IMG/VR virus record: IMGVR_UViG_3300030202_003502
Location: 1 to 25,651 of that record
Direction: 5' to 3' (one strand)
DNA from: a virus
Length of the DNA: 25,651 bases
Below the pieces are notes generated by a model. It saw nothing but the letters and a program-made list of their open reading frames with translations. It was not told where the DNA came from and made no database searches. Both the position numbers and the translations under genes were made by a program. Shown here piece after piece: positions 5,879 through 23,128 of this stretch (positions within the stretch are counted from its first letter, which is position 1; the number at the start of each line of letters is the position of its first letter).

Positions 5879-6679
5879 TTAGCAGGCTCCTGCTGTATTG
5901 AATTCTAAGGATGGGTCTGTAGTTTCTAAAGATAAGTTAAAGTTTACCATCATAGGTGTTGATAGTGATACACTTCTTTTTCTATTTGGATTAGCACTAT
6001 TAATAACTTGAACAACTACCATAATCATATCCTCTGTGCCTAAACTATATCCTAATATGTCAATTAAATCAATTTCAAAATTCATACACCCTATTCCTGT
6101 CGAAGAACCCACACCTGCACTATTTACTAGAGTTGAATATACACCTAGACATGTTGGAATAAGTGGTGTTAAAGCAGGAGAAGTGTTAACATTGTCTAAA
6201 CATGGGTAGTGGTAAATGTAAATATTAGTGTAATGATTATTTGGAGGAACCCCTATATGGCCATTAAAATAAATTTTGGTTACATTACTATAAGGTATAG
6301 GTCTTAATGAACCTCTTTCTGTTGCCCAATCAAAAGAAGAAAAGTTAAGTAGGTTAAGAGTCCATTGAGGCGTGTTCCAATTTGCATAAGCACTAAAACC
6401 TTCAATTGGTCCTCCATAGTATGTATTTTTACTAGTGACCGCACCACCACCTATTTGATGAGATTCTGTTAACCAAGTTTTAATTTGTGGAATTAATTTA
6501 TTTTCCCATTGCTTAGTAACTTCATTGTAAACTAATTGTTCACCTTCCTGTGGGTCTACAATTAATACATCATCGTTATCATTGAGTTCAAGAGGACCAC
6601 TCAACCAAACATTTTCGGTATTATTTCCATTATTGCTTAATAAAGGTGGATATACTTTATACTTTTTTCTCTTGATCAT
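5879..6679 (-). CDS. Putative virion surface or tail-fibre-like protein
   Basis: This 266-residue protein starts with a basic segment (MIKRKKYKVYPPLL). It then has a short 'DDVLIVDPQEGEQLVYNEVTKQWEN' type segment at about residues 35-60, a form common at the junction between trunk and tip in phage fibre or appendage proteins ('LVYN..T..W.N'). The rest is beta-rich, with many Asn, Thr, Tyr and Ser and no signal peptide, fitting a receptor-binding or decoration domain. It overlaps the ClpC-like gene by 23 nt. I do not recognise the C-terminal family. The structural role is inferred from composition and the junction motif. Confidence 0.72.
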   Translation of the reverse strand: MIKRKKYKVYPPLLSNNGNNTENVWLSGPLELNDNDDVLIVDPQEGEQLVYNEVTKQWENKLIPQIKTWLTESHQIGGGAVTSKNTYYGGPIEGFSAYANWNTPQWTLNLLNFSSFDWATERGSLRPIPYSNVTKIYFNGHIGVPPNNHYTNIYIYHYPCLDNVNTSPALTPLIPTCLGVYSTLVNSAGVGSSTGIGCMNFEIDLIDILGYSLGTEDMIMVVVQVINSANPNRKRSVSLSTPMMVNFNLSLETTDPSLEFNTAGAC

Positions 6680-8684
6680 TTCCAGTTATTAATAATTTTC
6701 CTTCTTTGGTTCCTTTAATGTCAATGGTATCACCTTCATTAATTTCGCCTTTAAGAATAGCGGTTGCGATAGGATCTTCTATTAATTTTTCAATGGTTCT
6801 ATTTAGCTGTCTTGCTCCACATGAATCATCATAGCCTTCTTTAATGATTATTTTATATGCTGAGCGATTTACCTTTAAATTATATTCTCCAACTTCTTCT
6901 AAATTTTCTGCTAGATTTTTTAATTCTATTTTAAGGATCTTTGTCATATCCTCTTCATTTAATCTATTAAAGATAAGTATTTCATCTAACCTATTTAAGA
7001 ATTCAGGAGGGAATTGATTTTTAAGAGCTTTCTTTAAAATTTCGTTTTCTTCTTGAGTCTTTCTTGCATTAGAACCAAAGCCTATACCTGGACCAAAATC
7101 TTGTACCTTTCTTGCACCAGCATTTGAAGTTAAAATAATAAGACAGTTTCTAAAATCTATTGTTCTTCCTAATGAATCTGTTAAGAAACCATCATCCAAC
7201 ATTTGGAGCATTACATTAAAGATCTCTGGATGAGCTTTTTCAACTTCATCGAATAATACCAATGAATGCGGTTTTCTTCTCACCTGCTCTGTTAGTTGTC
7301 CACCTTCTTCATATCCTACATAACCTGGAGGAGAACCTATTAATCTTGATATAGAATGTTTTTCACTATATTCAGTCATATCAATTCTAACCATATCATC
7401 CGGTGAACCAAACATATAATTTGCCAATTCTTTAGCCAATTGAGTTTTACCAACTCCTGTAGGTCCTAAGAACATAAAGTTTCCAACCGTTCTATCCTTC
7501 TTTCTAATTCCTACGCGGTTTCTTTGTATATGTGTTGATATTTTATCAACTGCTTCTTTTTGGCCTATGACAATTGAATTTAAAGCAGCAGGCATTTTTA
7601 ACAATTCTTTATGTTCCTTTTCTCCTATTTTTGTAACAGGTACTCCAGTGCTTTTTGAAACAACATTTAATATATCTGCTTCTGTTATATCTAAAAAGTT
7701 ATTTTTTAAATCTTCTTTCCATATAGCATAAGCAGTTTTAATTTTACTTTCTATCTGTAGTATTTCATCACGATGTTTAGCAGCTGATTCATAATCTTGT
7801 CTATTTACAGATTCTACTTTTTCGTCAACCTTTTTTGATTTACCCTCTTCCATCTTTTTGATTTTCTGAGGTACCTTCATTTGGGTTAAATGTTTAAAAG
7901 AACCAACTTCATCCATTATATCAATTGCTTTATCAGGAAAGTATCTATCGGTTACATACCTATCCGCCAATTTAACAATAAGATCAATATTTTCATCGGT
8001 ATATTTTACGCAGTGGTGATCTTGGTATCTTTCTCTAATGTTAGAAAGTATAGTGATAGTATCTTCTAATGATGGAGGATCTACTGTTACTTGTTGGAAT
8101 CTTCTGTCTAATGCTCCGTCAGTTTCAATGTTTTCTCTGAATTCATCAAAGGTAGTTGCACCTATACATCTGATTTCCCCACGAGCCAATGCAGGTTTAA
8201 TAATATTTGAAGCATCTAACGACCCGGATGCACCACCTGCACCAACCATAGTATGCATTTCATCTATAAAAATAATTATGTCTTTATTCTGAATAAGCTC
8301 TTCCATTATCGCTTTCATTCTTTCTTCGAATTGACCACGATACTTTGTCCCAGCTACTAAACTTGACATTTCTAATCCATACACTCTTTTGCCTTGTAAA
8401 CTTACAGGAACCTTTCCTTCAATTATTCTTAAGGCTAATCCTTCAACTATTGCTGTTTTACCAACACCAGGTTCTCCTACAAGAACAGGATTGTTTTTCT
8501 TTCTCCTTCCTAAGATTTGGATAACTCGATGAATCTCATCTTCACGACCAATGACTGGATCAAGTTTATTCTCTGACGCCAACTTTGTGATATCTTGTCC
8601 GAAATTATCTAAAGCAGTAGTTTTTTTAGAACCTCCTTTATCCTTTTCTTTAAAGAAATCATCTTCTGGATATATTTCCCCCAT
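6657..8684 (-). CDS. ClpC-like AAA+ unfoldase lacking the N-domain
   Basis: This 675-residue protein has both AAA+ rings of the class I Clp family. D1 has Walker A GEPGVGKT (70-77) and Walker B ending FIDE (about 139-142). D2 has Walker A GPTGVGKT (407-414), Walker B LVLFDE (475-480) and the C-terminal GARQLNR segment. The middle region is short, with a UVR-like QDYESAAKHRDEI (296-308), as in ClpC; the long ClpB coiled coil is absent. An IGF tripeptide (534-536) lies where ClpA/ClpC carry the ClpP-docking loop, so docking to host ClpP is likely. The usual ~150-residue adaptor-binding N-domain is missing and only ~25 charged residues precede D1. It starts 2 nt after 8687 and overlaps the next gene by 23 nt. 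No ClpP gene is in this window. Confidence 0.95.
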   Translation of the reverse strand: MGEIYPEDDFFKEKDKGGSKKTTALDNFGQDITKLASENKLDPVIGREDEIHRVIQILGRRKKNNPVLVGEPGVGKTAIVEGLALRIIEGKVPVSLQGKRVYGLEMSSLVAGTKYRGQFEERMKAIMEELIQNKDIIIFIDEMHTMVGAGGASGSLDASNIIKPALARGEIRCIGATTFDEFRENIETDGALDRRFQQVTVDPPSLEDTITILSNIRERYQDHHCVKYTDENIDLIVKLADRYVTDRYFPDKAIDIMDEVGSFKHLTQMKVPQKIKKMEEGKSKKVDEKVESVNRQDYESAAKHRDEILQIESKIKTAYAIWKEDLKNNFLDITEADILNVVSKSTGVPVTKIGEKEHKELLKMPAALNSIVIGQKEAVDKISTHIQRNRVGIRKKDRTVGNFMFLGPTGVGKTQLAKELANYMFGSPDDMVRIDMTEYSEKHSISRLIGSPPGYVGYEEGGQLTEQVRRKPHSLVLFDEVEKAHPEIFNVMLQMLDDGFLTDSLGRTIDFRNCLIILTSNAGARKVQDFGPGIGFGSNARKTQEENEILKKALKNQFPPEFLNRLDEILIFNRLNEEDMTKILKIELKNLAENLEEVGEYNLKVNRSAYKIIIKEGYDDSCGARQLNRTIEKLIEDPIATAILKGEINEGDTIDIKGTKEGKLLITGNDQEKKV

Positions 8685-10344: not shown

Positions 10345-11076
10345 TTAATGATATAAGTCTAAATTTTGCCTTACATCTTTACCATTTTTTAAACCTTTAA
10401 TAGGAAAACTTACTCCTTTAAAATGAAAAACAAAACTTTTTAATGCAAGAGTAGGAGGTTCTTTTAATCTTTGCTGTAAATCAGTTTCTTGCCCTACATT
10501 TATTAATTTAGGATCAAATAAATTATTAGCATTAAATTCCGATTGTATAATTTTTTTATTCATCCCAAAAATAAACCCATTAAAGTTGGAAATTTTAATT
10601 GATGTATTAGCTGACTGTTCTATGTATTTTTGTATATGCAGAAATTTATTATGATTAGATGCTGTATTAATTAAATTAGGATAATACTTATCTATTGACT
10701 GTTCTTTCCAATTATGCCCAGCTCCTTTCTTAGTACTTAGAGGAACAACCATACTATTAGTTTTAAGCAAGGATATCATTTCGTTTAAACTTCCTTGTGA
10801 TAAAAGTATATCATTATTTGAAATAATTAAATTATCATAATTTTTATTTTTAAACATCCGATAAGCTATGTTCCAACTTTCAGTTAAACCTTTAGGTATT
10901 TCTCTTCCCTTAAAGAAGTATTTACTTTCATTTAAATATTTAACTGTACCGTCGGTGCTTACATCGTCAATAAATATTATGTCTATTCCAGTTAGGTTAA
11001 TAGACCTTAAGGATTCAATTAAAAGTTTAGTATATTTTAATTGATTATATGTTGTTATTGCTAATAATGTTTTCAT
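10345..11076 (-). CDS. Family 2-like glycosyltransferase
   Basis: This 243-residue protein shows a GT-A fold. The nucleotide-binding start is LLAITTYNQLKYTKLLIESL, followed by IDIIFIDDVSTDGT (about 33-46), the common GT2 'DD.S.DGT' turn. An NLIISNNDILL stretch near residue 84 sits where the metal-binding DxD motif lies in this fold. No membrane helix is seen, so it is a soluble enzyme. The ATG overlaps the end of the preceding GT92-like gene by 4 nt (ATGA), so translation is coupled. Donor and acceptor are unknown. It is the last glycosyltransferase of a five-gene block. Confidence 0.85.
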   Translation of the reverse strand: MKTLLAITTYNQLKYTKLLIESLRSINLTGIDIIFIDDVSTDGTVKYLNESKYFFKGREIPKGLTESWNIAYRMFKNKNYDNLIISNNDILLSQGSLNEMISLLKTNSMVVPLSTKKGAGHNWKEQSIDKYYPNLINTASNHNKFLHIQKYIEQSANTSIKISNFNGFIFGMNKKIIQSEFNANNLFDPKLINVGQETDLQQRLKEPPTLALKSFVFHFKGVSFPIKGLKNGKDVRQNLDLYH

Positions 11077-11873
11077 TTTATTCTATGTAATAATTTATGT
11101 AAACTTAAATCTTGCTTACCACCTTGAAATTTATTCCAAAAATCTTCGGTTAATGTCGAAATACGCTTTTCTCTAGCATTTCCACCACCTCTTTTTTTCT
11201 TATGTTCAAAATCTTCACGGCTTCTTGTTATGTAATGATTTAGTTGGATATAATCATATGTAATATTATGATTAAATGCACCATTAGATGTAGCTTTACC
11301 ATCAGGTAAAATACCGTTTGCTAATTTGATTTCTTTTTCATTTACACAAAACTTATCTTTATGATATGCAAATGAATGAGGGTCCAAACTTCTAATTACA
11401 CATTTTGGTTGAACTATTGATTTAATGTGGCAATTATCACTAACTTCTTTTGCATATGTATAACTTTCAATGACACTTTTTTGTTTTTTAGTATGACCTG
11501 AAGAACCGAAGCATTTCCAATTTATACCAACCCCACCATATCTTTCATAATTTTTTAAAAAGTCCTTTAAACAATTCTTTTTCTTTAAAACTAAAAATTC
11601 ATCAGTATCTATAAAGCCTATCCAATGATTATTGTTTCCATATTTATTTATGCAATCATTATATGCTCTGCATTGAGATCCTCGAGTCACAGATACCCAC
11701 GGTATTACTTTAACATTGTTAAATTCTTTTAGGTCCAATGCTAAAGGTTTTGTAGAATTATTATCATAAATGTAAAAATAATCTACGCCTAACTTTGTAT
11801 GATATTGAATATTTTCTTTTAAATACTCATTTTCATTTTTTGACATTATACATAAACTTAAATAATTCTTCAT
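11073..11873 (-). CDS. GT92-like glycosyltransferase
   Basis: This 266-residue protein has the features of the GT92 / Glyco_tranf_2_4 group. The start YLSLCIMSKNENEYLKENIQ and HTKLGVDYFYIYDNNS are typical of these enzymes, which recognise 'vd.f.iYDn.S'. A DTDEF metal-binding motif lies near residue 89, and GVGINWKCFGSSGH follows in the usual place. A late HYITRSREDFEHKKKRGG segment also fits this family. Both ends overlap neighbours by 4 nt (ATGA type), so the block is translated as a chain. The linkage made is unknown; related enzymes build cell-surface or secreted glycans. Confidence 0.88.
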   Translation of the reverse strand: MKNYLSLCIMSKNENEYLKENIQYHTKLGVDYFYIYDNNSTKPLALDLKEFNNVKVIPWVSVTRGSQCRAYNDCINKYGNNNHWIGFIDTDEFLVLKKKNCLKDFLKNYERYGGVGINWKCFGSSGHTKKQKSVIESYTYAKEVSDNCHIKSIVQPKCVIRSLDPHSFAYHKDKFCVNEKEIKLANGILPDGKATSNGAFNHNITYDYIQLNHYITRSREDFEHKKKRGGGNAREKRISTLTEDFWNKFQGGKQDLSLHKLLHRIK

Positions 11874-12793
11874 CTTATGTTTCCTATTTTTTTACCTTGT
11901 GATGTAATTACTAATCCTAATAATCTTTCTACTGCATGCGTATATGAAGGCTGATGAATATTACCAGGTTCTAATAAATTTACGATTTCTTTAATGTTAA
12001 TATTTTTAAAGATGTTTCTATAAATATTATCTTTAACCCAAAACATTGTTCCTACAGCGAATGCTCCCGTCGGTGGTATGTGTCCTAGATTAAATTTAGT
12101 TGTAAGTTTTTTTGCATAATCTAAATTTTTTGTATCTGACATAAGTTGTACAGAATTACTAAAACCTTCCTTTACTTCTCCCCACATCTCAAATTTATCT
12201 TTAGTGGATAAAGCACTCATTATATGTGAAGGCTTAAATATCCCTTCCAATAATCTTTTTCTCCAAGTATCACCACCTTTTAAATGAGGGCTCTTTTTAT
12301 CATGACAAAAAATAAACCAGTCATTTAAATTTTCTTTTGAATTATCTAAGTATTCTTTTAAGCATATTAACTTACCTCCTATATCTTTACCTTTATTAGG
12401 AACTACTCTTACTTTTGCATCTGGGAATTCTTTAAGAATTAATTTCTTTCTTAATTCTAAATTATCTTTAGTAGAATAATCCGGTAAAGATACCCAAACT
12501 TCCTTTTTACATTTAAGATTATTGATGTGATCAAAAATTTCAGTTATTAAATCAGTGTAGTATATGTGACAAAAAATTACCACCTTAGTATCACTATAAT
12601 CAAATTCTTTATTAGTATGAGATATTTTAATTGTGTGATTTCTTGTAATTGTATTGTTGCCTCGAGGTACATGGACTGACTTTGGGTTTCGGGGTGTGTA
12701 TCTAATTGACTCCCTTCTTGGTTCTTTAGGCTTAACTATTTTTCTTTCAACACTTAATTTAGTAAGCTTAGTCCTTATCTTTTTTCTTTTCAT
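11870..12793 (-). CDS. RgpF-like (rhamnan synthesis F) glycosyltransferase
   Basis: This 307-residue protein has a basic, Pro/Arg-rich N-terminus (1-55, not seen in typical members) and then a domain matching the rhamnan-synthesis F family (PF05045). The signs are VVIFCHIYYTDLITEIFDHIN, PNKGKDIGGKLICLKEYL and FIFCHDKKSPHLKGGDTWRKRL. In that family the 'N.GrDi.pfL' and 'KkS.h...g..Wr..l' stretches are hallmarks. The bacterial relatives transfer rhamnose or related sugars to surface polysaccharide. It starts next to the preceding gene with no gap (stop at 12794) and overlaps the following gene by 4 nt. Confidence 0.88.
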   Translation of the reverse strand: MKRKKIRTKLTKLSVERKIVKPKEPRRESIRYTPRNPKSVHVPRGNNTITRNHTIKISHTNKEFDYSDTKVVIFCHIYYTDLITEIFDHINNLKCKKEVWVSLPDYSTKDNLELRKKLILKEFPDAKVRVVPNKGKDIGGKLICLKEYLDNSKENLNDWFIFCHDKKSPHLKGGDTWRKRLLEGIFKPSHIMSALSTKDKFEMWGEVKEGFSNSVQLMSDTKNLDYAKKLTTKFNLGHIPPTGAFAVGTMFWVKDNIYRNIFKNINIKEIVNLLEPGNIHQPSYTHAVERLLGLVITSQGKKIGNIR

Positions 12794-13489
12794 CTATCTA
12801 CTTTTTCTTCCACCACCATAATGATCAATTGAGTGTTCAGTTAGTCTTAAATGTTTGTATCCCATTTGATGTAAATGATTACCAAAATCTCTATCCAAAT
12901 GAATTAAGTGTTTGAAACTTGGTCTATTTATATATTCTATTAAATTAGGCCTCCAGAGACTATATAAAAATGGTACTCCGCAACCACCAACATTATTAAT
13001 AGGACCTAACTTAGGATGTCTTTTGTATGAAGGATCTCTATGCCAATGATTGTGTGTAGGATAGCAAAATTTACCTTGCCATTTATACATAGGTGTTACC
13101 GATGCTATTTGATTAGGAAGTTCTTCATTATATACACGCAACATAGCAGTTAAACATTTCATATTAGGAACAGCGTCAGTTTCAATAATTTGTACAACAT
13201 CTGGAATAAAAGATCTATCCCTTTCGTTCCACCCTGTCCAAATAGCGTCCTTTAAAGATTTTTTAATATTAGAATGTACAAGCTTAACCCAAGGAAATTC
13301 TTGATCAGCACGATACATTAAATTAACAACATCACTTGTTGAGTGGCTATTAACTAACATAACCTTTACATGCTCTTCTCTGAATAATGTAAAGTAATTA
13401 TTTTCTACGAATCTTAATAATCTTTGTACCCCTTCTTTGTAATTGTGTACGGGAATTATGACTAAGATTTTTTCTGGTATTTCTTTCAT
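12794..13489 (-). CDS. Family 2-like glycosyltransferase
   Basis: This 231-residue protein has the GT-A beginning ILVIIPVHNYKEGVQRLLRF, a VKVMLVNSHSTSD turn near residue 43, and IIETDAVPNMKCL near residue 101 with a DxD-like ETD. A His/Gly-rich end (HYGGGRKSR) follows. The N-terminus needs the ATG at 13489, which lies 92 nt inside the end of the upstream gene. A shorter start would delete the core GT strand, so I keep this start. The overlap is out of frame with that gene. Function within the sugar block is unknown. Confidence 0.85.
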   Translation of the reverse strand: MKEIPEKILVIIPVHNYKEGVQRLLRFVENNYFTLFREEHVKVMLVNSHSTSDVVNLMYRADQEFPWVKLVHSNIKKSLKDAIWTGWNERDRSFIPDVVQIIETDAVPNMKCLTAMLRVYNEELPNQIASVTPMYKWQGKFCYPTHNHWHRDPSYKRHPKLGPINNVGGCGVPFLYSLWRPNLIEYINRPSFKHLIHLDRDFGNHLHQMGYKHLRLTEHSIDHYGGGRKSR

Positions 13490-14210
13490 TTAATGAAGTT
13501 GTGTTATTTTGAGATGGTGTTATTTTTGAAATGGTACCTCTCCCTCTATTTATACTTTTAGGAATTTCTTTTGAAATAGAATTGTAAAAATTTATTTGGT
13601 CATCCATATTTTTACTAAACCATTGTGACGCAGTACTCCCAGTCATATCCCATTTAAATCTAGCATTATGACCACCGCCACCACACAATCCTATTCCATG
13701 TTTTATTCCTATTGCCTTAATTTGATTCTTAGGAAAATTAACAGTCTTAACCAAACCTGTCTTATGTAAATGCATATCTAAAAAAGCATAATCATCAGAA
13801 CACCAATTTCCTTTAAACGGTAAATTTATCATGGTACAAAACAAAGAAGTTCTATTTCCGTGCTTCATATGTAAACGTCCATTAACCGCTATGTTGTAAT
13901 AGTAAGTTTCACCTACACCAAAAATAGCAGGCCTATTACTTTTTTCCCATTCTTTTAATAACCATTCTAAATATGTAGGATGATACCAATCGTCATCTTC
14001 CCAAAATACAGCAACATTAAAACCTTCCTTTGTAGCTTTTTCTACCCCTCTCCTCATTCTTTGTGTAATGTCCTTCTTATGTGATTCAGGTTTATAGTCC
14101 ATCCAAAAAATCTTATCAGGCTTTCTTGTTTGCCTTTGTAATAGGTTTTTACATTGTTTAATAAATTGAGGTCTATCGCCTCTTGTAGGAATTATTACTG
14201 CTACTTTCAT
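13398..14210 (-). CDS. Family 2-like glycosyltransferase with basic C-terminal extension
   Basis: This 270-residue protein begins MKVAVIIPTRGDRPQFIKQC, a GT-A strand, and has FWEDDDWYHPTYLEWLL at about residue 70-86 with a DDD metal site. Later segments such as GIKHGIGLCGGGGHN and WFSKNMDDQINFYN support an intact domain to about residue 210. The last ~55 residues are Ser/Arg/Lys-rich and low complexity. The final ~30 are read from DNA that in another frame encodes the N-terminus of the next glycosyltransferase (92-nt overlap). The tail could be a true basic tail or the result of a lost stop codon or indel. It is the first gene of the sugar block, just after a terminator hairpin. Confidence 0.82.
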   Translation of the reverse strand: MKVAVIIPTRGDRPQFIKQCKNLLQRQTRKPDKIFWMDYKPESHKKDITQRMRRGVEKATKEGFNVAVFWEDDDWYHPTYLEWLLKEWEKSNRPAIFGVGETYYYNIAVNGRLHMKHGNRTSLFCTMINLPFKGNWCSDDYAFLDMHLHKTGLVKTVNFPKNQIKAIGIKHGIGLCGGGGHNARFKWDMTGSTASQWFSKNMDDQINFYNSISKEIPKSINRGRGTISKITPSQNNTTSLNERNTRKNLSHNSRTQLQRRGTKIIKIRRK

Positions 14211-17928: not shown

Positions 17929-18234
17929 TTAATTTTCTTTTTCTTCTAAGGCATTAATAGAAATTCTTTCCTTATCAGATATTTCTTCTATTCTTAAAGT
18001 TTTCCACGCAGGAACTTCTTTAATTAGTTTAATCATTTCTTCTGTGCTAATAACCGTTGCGGTTAAAGTATCCACTTCAGCCTGTAGTGTAATGATTTCT
18101 TTTTTAAGTTCTTTTCTAAGTTTTTTGTTTTCATTATTATGAGAACATGAATTACACTGTGATAATGCACTTAAGAAAAAGAATCCGTAGACTACATACA
18201 CAGCATTGGTTTTAAATAATTTATCAATCTTCAT
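17929..18234 (-). CDS. Membrane-anchored coiled-coil protein
   Basis: I place the start at the ATG at 18234, giving 101 residues. The frame is open further upstream to 18372, but that extra part is the shadow of the zinc-knuckle gene read in another frame, and 18234 gives an 11-nt overlap typical of this genome. The product has one membrane segment (about 12-30, VYVVYGFFFLSALSQC), a CNSC pair, then a coiled coil (about 38-75, KKLRKELKKEIITLQAEVDTL) and a charged tail. A single helix followed by an outward coiled coil also fits a spanin-like protein, but no lipobox partner is seen. Function is unknown. Confidence 0.7.
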   Translation of the reverse strand: MKIDKLFKTNAVYVVYGFFFLSALSQCNSCSHNNENKKLRKELKKEIITLQAEVDTLTATVISTEEMIKLIKEVPAWKTLRIEEISDKERISINALEEKEN

Positions 18235-18505
18235 TTTTAAATTTTTGATTAGGTTCGTTTTTTTGTCTTTCTTCAGGTGGTACTCTATGTATTGTATGAG
18301 TGCTCCACTGATCGTCACCTTCGCATTTACAATCTTCAGGAGCTTCGCCGCATCTTGGACAGTCTTCATCAACCTTATCCATATACTTTTCCACTTCCTT
18401 TTCTAACTTTTTATCGCTAGGAGATTCATGCTCTTTACCTGCAACTTTAACTACTTTGGTTTCACCTTCAGTTAAAAATTGCATGAAACTTTTAAAATAT
18501 TTCAT
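18224..18505 (-). CDS. Zinc-knuckle protein with capsid-targeting-like N-terminus
   Basis: This 93-residue protein begins MKYFKSFMQFLTEGETK. The opening 'F..F..FLTE|G' resembles the T4 capsid-targeting sequence (MKTYQEFIAEA in the internal proteins), which directs proteins into the prohead and is cut by the prohead protease at L/I-x-E. The ATP-grasp gene in this window begins with the same pattern. Later, C49, C52, C59 and C61 form a CPRCG...CKC zinc-knuckle-like site, and the rest is charged and helical. The N-terminal comparison is from memory and needs testing. The protein may be carried in the capsid. It stands between the nuclease gene (25-nt gap) and the coiled-coil gene. Confidence 0.75.
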   Translation of the reverse strand: MKYFKSFMQFLTEGETKVVKVAGKEHESPSDKKLEKEVEKYMDKVDEDCPRCGEAPEDCKCEGDDQWSTHTIHRVPPEERQKNEPNQKFKNED

Positions 18506-19954: not shown

Positions 19955-20611
19955 TTATGTATCGGATCCAACGGAAAATAATGGAAGTGTTTCAAGCTGT
20001 TTCTTAACAATTTTTCTCCCTCGGAAGATTCTATTCTTAACAGTTTGTAAACTAACATCCTTTTCTTCTTGCCCCATCATATCCAGGATATCGTTATATG
20101 ATTTATTATTTAGGAATCTTTCCACCATATATTTTTTGTACATAGGAGGTAGATTCGTTATTGCTTCTTTTACCAAACGATCTCTTTCTTCGATTTCATG
20201 TTCCTCTTCCCAGTGATCATGCTCAGTTACTTGTTCTTCACCATCAAATAAAGGATTAGAACTTTGAAATACAAACCCAGATCCACTAGCTTCTACTCCT
20301 TTATCAGCAAAGACATTTAAGCTTACCTTTTTATTTCTTGTCATTATGACTCCCATGCATTCATTGTATGCAATTCGGTATGCCCACGTTGTAATTTGGT
20401 AATCAGGATTAAATTGATCTATTTTAAAATAAACCTTTGTTAAAGTATTAGAAACAACATCATCAGTTGCATCCCAGTCCTTTAAGATACCGTAAACATA
20501 ATTACGAATACCCGGTCTCATTTTCTCATATAGTTCTTTAAACACCTTTTCGTTTTTAGTGTTTTTAAATTCTAATGCTAATTCTTTGTACGTTCTTTTA
20601 GAGTTCTTCAT
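19955..20611 (-). CDS. Sigma-70-family (ECF-like) RNA polymerase sigma factor
   Basis: This 218-residue protein has sigma region 2 at about 24-95 (ELYEKMRPGIRNYVYGIL, then DATDDVVSNTLTKVYFKID and TWAYRIAYNECMG) and region 4 at about 148-205 (AITNLPPMYKKYMVERF, KSYNDILDMMG, VSLQTVKNRIFRGRKIV). Regions 1 and 3 are missing, as in ECF factors, and a Glu/Asp-rich linker joins the two parts. It should bind host core RNA polymerase and select phage promoters, like T4 gp55 in role but not sequence family. The recurring TATAA-T/A-AATAAA motifs here are a candidate target. Its start overlaps the upstream phosphoesterase gene by 14 nt. Confidence 0.93.
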   Translation of the reverse strand: MKNSKRTYKELALEFKNTKNEKVFKELYEKMRPGIRNYVYGILKDWDATDDVVSNTLTKVYFKIDQFNPDYQITTWAYRIAYNECMGVIMTRNKKVSLNVFADKGVEASGSGFVFQSSNPLFDGEEQVTEHDHWEEEHEIEERDRLVKEAITNLPPMYKKYMVERFLNNKSYNDILDMMGQEEKDVSLQTVKNRIFRGRKIVKKQLETLPLFSVGSDT

Positions 20612-21203: not shown

Positions 21204-22202
21204 TTATTTAGGTAGAAGAGATTTCTTATACTCTTTTGGATAATCGGTTTTAATGTGACTATTATAGGACTCTTTTATTTTATCAATAAATTCCCTATCT
21301 TCCTTTGCTATTTTCTTATCGTAAAAATCTTCATGAATGGCTTCATATACTGATACGAGAGAATTGGATCCTAAACCACTACTTGCATTTGCTTCTATTA
21401 ACGATAAGCCTTCATTCTTTGTTGAAAAGAAATCTAAAGAGTATACATCCAATTTAACTTTGTCGTTAAAAGTTTTTGCCATTTCCATAAGCTCTTTAGT
21501 AAAAGGTAACTTATCTTTTTGTTCAATATAAACAAATGAAAGTTTTTCATCTCTACCTTTTGTCTCTATACTCTTATCATCTTTAATGATAGGTACTCTT
21601 TCATAAACAACAGCAAGTTTATCTTTAACAAATAAACCTCGATACTCTCTATCAAAATTTACAAATTCACTAAAGAGATCAAATTTACCTTTTGACTTTT
21701 TAAGATCATCAATAGTTTCAAACTTTTCAATACCTATACCGCTCATACCTTCTGCTGGTTTTGCTATTATAGGAAATTTAAGTTTTTCTGCTTCTTTAAT
21801 ATTAAATACTGTCTTTGGAGTTAAATCTGTACCATCTAAAGCTTTATGAAATTTTACCTTATCTCCAGATTTTTGTTGTTCGTCGGGTTTATTGTAAACA
21901 ACATTGTTGTGTTCTTTAATGTATTCATTAATAAACTTTGATGATTCTCCGCTTTTAGCTCCATAATAAAGAATAGGTCTATCAGGTTTTAAAGTTTCCT
22001 TTAATTTATCAAAGTCGGTATATTTACCATCCTTCTTTAGAATGTGCTCTTCATAAAATCTTTCGTTAGCATCTTCTGTAAGTTTTACAAGAGCTTTATT
22101 ATCAGTGTAAGATTTAACTGGAGTTAGTCTAAGAAATTGTACTTTTTTATTTAAGGATTCAAAACCTTCATTAATAAATTGACCAAAATTCTTTAATTGC
22201 AT
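21204..22202 (-). CDS. ATP-grasp enzyme with capsid-targeting-like N-terminus
   Basis: This 332-residue protein has an ATP-grasp core: FPIIAKPAEGMSGIGI (about 143-158, K148 binds phosphate), the following DLFSEFVNFDREYRG, D257 in LDVYSLDFF, and IEANAS with E270/N272 as Mg ligands. It resembles RimK or glutathione-synthetase-type ligases, which join an acid to an amine using ATP. The substrate is unknown. The start MQLKNFGQFINEGFES matches the zinc-knuckle protein at 18505 (F..F-I/L-x-E-G) and recalls T4 capsid-targeting sequences, with a possible prohead-protease cut after E12. If so, the enzyme is packaged and injected. Its ATG overlaps the preceding gene by 10 nt. Confidence 0.88.
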   Translation of the reverse strand: MQLKNFGQFINEGFESLNKKVQFLRLTPVKSYTDNKALVKLTEDANERFYEEHILKKDGKYTDFDKLKETLKPDRPILYYGAKSGESSKFINEYIKEHNNVVYNKPDEQQKSGDKVKFHKALDGTDLTPKTVFNIKEAEKLKFPIIAKPAEGMSGIGIEKFETIDDLKKSKGKFDLFSEFVNFDREYRGLFVKDKLAVVYERVPIIKDDKSIETKGRDEKLSFVYIEQKDKLPFTKELMEMAKTFNDKVKLDVYSLDFFSTKNEGLSLIEANASSGLGSNSLVSVYEAIHEDFYDKKIAKEDREFIDKIKESYNSHIKTDYPKEYKKSLLPK

Positions 22203-23128
22203 ACAATAGTGTTATTTTCCTTATTATATATTAGGTCATCAAAAGTACCGTTTACAGCTTCAATGATCCAGTCAATTAATCTATCGTTATGAAAATCATG
22301 CCTAAGCTTTTTTGTTCCGTTATCAATTTCTTTACATAAATAATTTATAGCTGGGTGAGTCTTGCTAGATTTATCAATTAGGTTTTCATTAACAATTGGG
22401 AAACCGTTTTCAAAAAACTTTTCAGTTAGCATTTCTTTTACCAAATCAAAATGTCTTTCATATAAATGTATTGAATGTACAATATGAGTATATGATCCTA
22501 GCTCTAAATCAGGATAATGTTTTTCTTTTAATAAGTTTAACATCTGTTGTTGTAATAAACAGAAGAATGCAATGTCAGTAGGTGTACCTAAGATAAGATC
22601 ATTCGATCTCATATCCACCGTAAAGTTTAATTTATTATCTCTTATTTGAAACAGCCCAGTTAAAGTACAAACAAAATCTTTATTTGTAGCAATCTGATGC
22701 TTAGGCATATTAAAATGCATTAGAGCTTGCCTTGTATCTTTATCATTGATTAAAGAATTAAAAGCCCATTCCCATTGTGTATAACCATGTTCATTCTTTT
22801 CAGTGAACAATAAATTACCGTATGCTGAATTTACAGTACCATCTCCGTTTTCAATATTTCTCCAAAACTTTGCAAACTTTTCAATAAAATCAACATCATT
22901 TCTACCAGAGAAATACCATAAGAGCTCAGCGCCAATGTATTTAAGTTGACTACTCCTTCTCTTATTTATATAAAGTGGATATGTAGGATCATTAATTACT
23001 AATGCTGCATTTGTTACTTCTTTGATTTTCATACCTCTTGGTGATGATTCAAATTCTGGGTTTTTATATACATCCTTAAGTACTCTTTCATAAACCTCAG
23101 CGAAAGTTTCTCCGTTATATGTTCTCAT
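22193..23128 (-). CDS. dCMP hydroxymethylase / thymidylate synthase family, probably dCMP hydroxymethylase
   Basis: This 311-residue protein belongs to the thymidylate synthase superfamily. The catalytic Cys is C154 in DFVCT, followed by IRDNK and MRSND (173-177). The nucleotide-base contact is D185 in PTDIA, where thymidylate synthases have Asn (N177 in E. coli), and HLYERHF matches the late His/Tyr pair. T4 gp42, the dCMP hydroxymethylase, has the same DFMCT, IRDKK, MRSND, an Asp at the base-binding position and HVYSRHF (compared from memory). The most likely product is 5-hydroxymethyl-dCMP. dUMP/dCMP choice and hydroxymethyl versus methyl transfer need testing. It overlaps the small gene before it by 14 nt and lies beside two nucleotide kinases. 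Confidence 0.85.
   Translation of the reverse strand: MRTYNGETFAEVYERVLKDVYKNPEFESSPRGMKIKEVTNAALVINDPTYPLYINKRRSSQLKYIGAELLWYFSGRNDVDFIEKFAKFWRNIENGDGTVNSAYGNLLFTEKNEHGYTQWEWAFNSLINDKDTRQALMHFNMPKHQIATNKDFVCTLTGLFQIRDNKLNFTVDMRSNDLILGTPTDIAFFCLLQQQMLNLLKEKHYPDLELGSYTHIVHSIHLYERHFDLVKEMLTEKFFENGFPIVNENLIDKSSKTHPAINYLCKEIDNGTKKLRHDFHNDRLIDWIIEAVNGTFDDLIYNKENNTIVCN

Follow-up and report, generated by a model that had tools for sequence, protein, structure and literature searches.

The window, a stretch of 25,651 bases comprising bases 1–25651 of a 79,201-base virus record (G000), encodes an ATP-grasp ligase whose N-terminus resembles the capsid-targeting sequence of T4 internal proteins, raising the question of whether this enzyme travels in the phage head. 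The first-pass annotation, made from the letters of the window alone, had noticed that the ligase and an unrelated small protein both have F-x-x-F, a hydrophobic residue, any residue, Glu and Gly at residues 6–14. Both N-termini are present in the sequence as claimed, on the minus strand (Table 1): MQLKNFGQFINEG of the ATP-grasp protein reads F6 xx F9 I N E12/G13, and MKYFKSFMQFLTEG of the small protein reads F7 xx F10 L T E13/G14. The INE/G of the ligase indeed fits the L/I-x-E cut motif with a small residue after it. Because dozens of otherwise unrelated proteins in a group of uncultured large and huge phages, the ligase among them, begin with a T4-like head-loading tag, the ligase is probably present in the virion and injected; we assign a probability of about 0.8 to the reading that a clade-wide, T4-like propeptide brings the ligase into the phage head and is usually cut off, and that the ligase is then injected.

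Table 1. Features of the tagged loci and of the head module; positions are those of the window, or of the 79,201-base record where marked G000 (beyond the window).
Feature	Position	Strand	Remarks
Tagged ATP-grasp ligase, 332 aa	21204..22202	-	starts MQLKNFGQFINEG
Putative capsid-targeting propeptide of ATP-grasp ligase, codons 1–12	22167..22202	-	MQLKNFGQFINE; predicted cut E12/G13
Small tagged protein, 93 aa, predicted cargo	18224..18505	-	starts MKYFKSFMQFLTEG; CPRC...CKC cysteine cluster
Putative capsid-targeting propeptide of small protein, codons 1–13	18467..18505	-	MKYFKSFMQFLTE; predicted cut E13/G14
Thymidylate synthase gene, untagged	22193..23128	-	PF00303, E 3.7e-24
Third tagged protein	G000 36182-36529		starts MVLKFKDFVNEEA
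Major capsid protein	G000 54545-56293		T4-type head module
S77 protease and scaffold-like part, fused	G000 56474-58165		PF03420, E 2.6e-14
Portal	G000 58228-59880		T4-type head module
Putative capsid-targeting tag, further sequence form			MKHIKLFEQFINEA

The last 10 bases of the thymidylate synthase gene are also the first 10 of the ATP-grasp gene. Elsewhere in the window are a phage-encoded sigma-70-family factor (19955-20611; Sigma70_r2 E 6.6e-9, phrog_1740) and, recognised by eye from the translations, a reading frame for a Clp-type AAA ATPase (6657-8684) and a row of glycosyltransferase-like frames (10345-14210).

Within the window alone, the significance of the motif is weak. In G000, two called N-termini matched the strict motif versus 0.16 expected (p = 0.011), in a gene set that lacked the small protein because a longer overlapping ORF had been called there. 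The ATP-grasp tag as a single observation is compatible with chance, because G000 should by chance contain approximately 1.5 N-termini that score as high in the matrix. Judging from the 79-kb record alone was therefore dropped, its statistics being too weak; the relatives make the signal strong. When a position weight matrix was trained on the phage LR756500 alone, it placed exactly the three tagged proteins at ranks 1–3 of all G000 N-termini, with the small protein at rank 2. The MKYFKSFMQFLTEG of this protein is in exact register with MKYIKEYEEFLNEA of relatives, and no homologue of it was found among named phages.

LR756500, a huge phage of 462 kb, is the closest named relative of G000 and has the closest capsid protein (56–58% identity), followed by those of Lak Prevotella phages, Tenacibaculum phage pT24 and metagenomic phages of 635–735 kb. 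A search of genome contigs returned a single, distant relative, and the host of the G000 phage is likely to belong to the Bacteroidota. In LR756500, 24 N-termini carry [FY]xxF[LIVM]x[ED] versus 1.3 expected (p = 3e-22), and about 30 proteins start in the form MKYIxEYEEFLxE[A/S]; the matrix built from the matching N-termini recognises approximately 35 tagged proteins in this phage. Enrichment like that in LR756500 was observed in contigs G001 (12 versus 0.16 expected), G003, G005 (9 versus 0.08 expected) and G006, and no enrichment was detected in PAU, pT24, S-PM2, crAss001 or the tested part of phiKZ. A DNA pattern for MKHI..[FY]E.F.NE matched at least 120 stretches in IMG/VR. In 22 further contigs (100–482 kb) that had been selected for carrying tagged or ATP-grasp loci, a stricter pattern gave 219 exact tags, and the same pattern reversed gave 1. 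The S77 protease scored over its cut-off in 16 of these 22, and the tagged contigs without a match may be incomplete.

Among 15 reference phages, the strict pattern occurred in LR756500 and was missing in the other 14, indicating that the tag is a trait of a phage group; a general trait of S77 phages was rejected on the same count. T4 is among the 14 because its own tag is shorter. The strict tag was absent from the related S77 phages PAU, pT24, Lak and the 635–735 kb records. The isolate Mel-JY01, which has one cargo-family relative in common with these phages, has no tag array, so no cultured model was found. Our literature search, by title and abstract and by sequence string and reaching few subscription journals and preprints, returned no description of the tag in these phages.

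The 50 unique tagged proteins that we compared fall into 41 body families and have only the N-terminus in common, by which gene duplication was rejected as the source of the tag. Information per position is high from residue 1 to 13, drops at residue 14 and is near zero beyond; likewise, only MKHIKLFExFxNE was conserved in an alignment of 108 further tagged proteins. The tag is usually 13 residues long (consensus MK[H/Y]IKLFEQF[I/V/L]NE), with positions 7 (F/Y), 10 (F), 11 (L/I/V) and 13 (E) among the most conserved, and Val is also used at the hydrophobic position of the L/I-x-E cut motif. At residue 14, 24 of the 50 proteins have Ala, Gly or Ser (48%; background 17%; p = 4e-7), as do 144 of 230 (63%; p = 1e-53) in a second set in which this residue was unconstrained. 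At the control residues 15–17, the same amino acids were near background. A conserved promoter or start region in the DNA was rejected as the explanation, because third codon bases in the tag region vary to the extent that codon usage predicts (identity 0.66 versus 0.71 expected). No enrichment of internal cut sites was observed in the tagged proteins overall (1.19 versus 1.40 per 1000 aa).

In T4, gp21 cuts after L/I-X-E, and a ten-residue stretch of IPIII is enough to direct packaging (PMC9026906). Residues 4 and 7 of the IPIII propeptide serve targeting and residues 8 and 10 serve processing, and Asp at position 10 blocks processing and keeps targeting (PMC9026906). When MKTYQEFIAE was aligned with MKHIKLFEQFINE, T4 positions 4, 7, 8 and 10 fell on tag positions 7, 10, 11 and 13, so that the likeness to the T4 capsid-targeting sequence suggested earlier holds position by position, mutation-mapped residues included. 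The motif applied to 269 called T4 ORFs returned IPII, IPIII and gp61.1. As in T4 IPI–IPIII, unrelated bodies follow a short putative propeptide at the N-terminus (MK..[YF]x[E]F[I/L/V]xE/[A/S/G]). The T-even internal proteins are diverse defence proteins with only the targeting sequence in common (PMC3012670), a pattern that the tagged proteins of this phage group match.

Gene context agrees with this likeness. The genome encodes a T4-type prohead protease, as the packaging proposal had called for: a Peptidase S77, the family of gp21, lies in the head module of G000 and is present in LR756500 too. Eight relatives have the order portal, protease-scaffold, capsid protein, and the order portal, protease, capsid is common to T4 and the tagged phages. 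In 7 of the 8, the gap between the portal and the protease-scaffold gene holds a tagged gene, or one with a slightly altered tag, for a protein of about 110–150 aa; this gap contained no gene in G000 and G025. In T4, core genes 67/68 occupy this position. A second short S77-like protein of approximately 130 aa accompanies the main protease in LR756500 (154840-155244), G011, G012 and G013. Two outcomes that the first-pass annotation had named as refuting, a genome lacking such a protease and an N-terminal motif without enrichment, did not arise: the protease is present, and the motif is strongly enriched in relatives. With the T4 positions matched as well, the capsid-targeting interpretation of that annotation is supported at the level of sequence, and a role as a T4-type capsid-targeting propeptide is very probable for the tag.

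We then consider the ligase. Pfam matches of the ATP-grasp protein to Dala_Dala_lig_C and RimK were weak and just over cut-off, and those to ATPgrasp_ST and R2K_2 (PF18299; 23.1 bits versus a cut-off of 26.2) were just under it, with the LR756500 homologue (39% identity) over the R2K_2 cut-off at 29.3 bits. The protein stayed below the curated cut-off of RimK (TIGR00768; 34.9 versus 143.4 bits) and that of the NCBIfam D-Ala ligase. An AlphaFold2 model built with 15 sequences reached a pLDDT of 85.2 and a pTM of 0.85 (pLDDT 38 with 3 sequences). The ATP-grasp fold is modelled with confidence from approximately residue 20 onward, and residues 1–4 and 10–14 have a pLDDT below 50; in the model, the tag thus sits outside the confident fold. 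Foldseek matched the model to 571 PDB chains at E ≤ 0.001, the best being ArgX (E 4.5e-13); ArgX/LysX, D-Ala-D-Ala ligase and RiPP ligases were at the top, and RimK was also among the matches. The phage protein has the same fold as the RimK, ArgX/LysX and R2K ligases, but is only 14–17% identical to them and carries the N-terminal tag in addition. RimK and ArgX join an amino acid to a carboxylate. In 15 homologues, K148, the glycine loop G152-S154-G155-G157, R188, D257 and E270 are invariant, and N272 is Ser in a second subfamily. Presumably these invariant residues have the catalytic roles known from the ATP-grasp family, and their conservation suggests that the enzyme is active.

An alignment-based scan found 23 loci homologous to the ATP-grasp gene, several of them near-identical to one another, and 22 had an intact start. 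The tag core ([FY]xx[FY] near the N-terminus) was present in all 22 full-length phage homologues. Glu occupies the cut position in 15 of the 22; the other seven are of the FKIND (LR756500) type or the FVYKEN group, so tag removal may not be universal. By analogy with T4, where Asp blocks processing but not targeting, these seven may be packaged uncut. In the second subfamily, in 17 contigs, an untagged alanine-dehydrogenase/transhydrogenase-like gene lies directly downstream of the ATP-grasp gene, and the ligase might therefore act on a product of the infected cell. This gene overlaps the ATP-grasp gene or starts within a few bases of it (L155:3900-4958, L033:5865-6917 and 15 others).

Most other tagged proteins have no recognised function. 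The tagged cargo of LR756500 includes a PNK3P phosphatase (PNKP-like), a DUF2201 metallopeptidase, a weak GNAT match and leucine-rich repeats; elsewhere we found a PAP2 phosphatase, cREC, ART-PolyVal and GNAT matches, a 2H protein with a below-threshold match to Acb1, and a cytidylyltransferase/NMNAT-like nucleotidyltransferase. The last (L155:1255-1833, L204:9681-10283) is NMN adenylyltransferase-like and might relate to NAD metabolism in infection.

The observations concern the tag (its conservation, its modularity and its cut-site statistics), the protease, the surroundings of the head genes and the fold of the ligase; from these we infer packaging, cleavage and injection of the ligase, and the kind of substrate it uses. 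Counting against this reading are the weak statistics in G000 alone, the lack of a tagged gene between its portal and protease, the seven homologues without Glu at the cut position, the related S77 phages without the strict tag, and the untagged alanine-dehydrogenase-like neighbour of the ligase gene. Residues 1–12 of the ATP-grasp protein would be a T4-type capsid-targeting propeptide, an amphipathic tag whose two aromatic anchors ([FY]xxF) bind the scaffold core during head assembly and thereby enclose the enzyme in the prohead. In most members, the S77 protease would cleave the [LIV]-x-E site behind its Glu, and the released ligase would remain in the DNA-filled head and enter the cell together with the DNA. 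There it probably links an amino acid, or an amine like it, to a carboxylate on a host protein or a small molecule, to aid take-over or to counter a defence; modification of host proteins or counter-defence is its most likely use. Jumbo phages carry R2K ligases, which were proposed to modify host proteins (PMC7824862). Packaging of the ligase in the head is highly likely, just behind the targeting role of the tag itself, and injection is likely. These gradings for tag, packaging and injection are judgements and were not computed.

The tag could also be real and the ligase work inside the prohead, on scaffold, capsid or an internal protein during assembly. Tagged genes do sit within the head-assembly module, and the product of the untagged alanine-dehydrogenase-like gene of the 17 contigs would act in the infected cell and could supply substrate during head building. 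However, ATP would have to get into the prohead interior, the PNKP, nucleotidyltransferase, GNAT and Acb1-like cargo suits a new host, and T4 Alt and IPI act after injection (PMC9026906); we therefore consider work in the prohead unlikely. Alt is itself an injected ADP-ribosyltransferase that is carried in the head and cleaved N-terminally at ITE-6 (PMC5694885). The proposed packaging of the ligase would parallel Alt in that an enzyme is carried in the head and cut at a similar N-terminal site, although the enzyme class and the N-terminal sequence differ.

Less probable still is that the N-terminus is another signal, such as a peptide for binding a host protein or for targeting a compartment, and that its likeness to T4 is convergent. 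Many S77 phages lack the tag, which would suit such a signal. The preference for A/G/S just after the Glu, the abrupt end of conservation, the agreement with functionally mapped T4 positions, the fact that the tag pattern also retrieves IPII and IPIII from T4, and the arrangement of the portal, protease and capsid genes all argue against it. That the two window proteins are alike by chance and the ligase is an ordinary cytosolic phage enzyme is very improbable, because the tag core is kept in every full-length homologue, at 33–48% identity to the window protein among those aligned, even if the score of the ligase tag is one that chance would supply in G000 alone.

Head loading of the ligase with subsequent injection may be part of a wider system. 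We somewhat favour the broader proposal that, in this group of uncultured large phages, the T4-like tag is a loading dock for injected proteins in general, with approximately 10–35 cargo types per genome, among them a dedicated ATP-grasp ligase, other enzymes and multi-unit cargo. The better-covered genomes have about 10–35 tagged proteins each, compared with three motif matches in T4; unlike in T4, the protease is fused to the scaffold, and enzymes and multi-unit proteins are among the cargo. In phiKZ and SPN3US, a gp21 homologue cleaves head proteins behind a Glu, as proposed here, but the propeptides of these ejection proteins are mostly long (up to >100 residues) and have the motif A-X-E (SPN3US) or S-X-E (phiKZ). 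A tag that predicts head loading makes hundreds of phage proteins without assigned roles into candidate injected factors that can be tested, and it begins to show what certain very large phages may hold in their heads in addition to DNA. An amino-acid ligase packaged in this way, if true, would add a new kind to the phage enzymes that act early.

Some large tagged proteins resemble fusions of units that are found elsewhere as single tagged proteins. Of 38 fusion junctions, which are partly redundant, 29 have an [LIVM]xE site where the units meet, versus 23% of random windows. If the tag is a general loading dock, the prohead protease would cut such multi-unit cargo into separate parts inside the capsid. 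In the polyprotein-like tagged proteins (L243:5722-8214, L163:4985-6289, L251:7127-8167 and others), internal sites of the ESVV[N/T]E/A type separate the units. Approximately 12 tagged proteins of LR756500 (L008, L014, L017, L018, L024, L025) have a common C-terminal end like NADDFGFFDN on differing bodies, which are leucine-rich repeats or unrelated.
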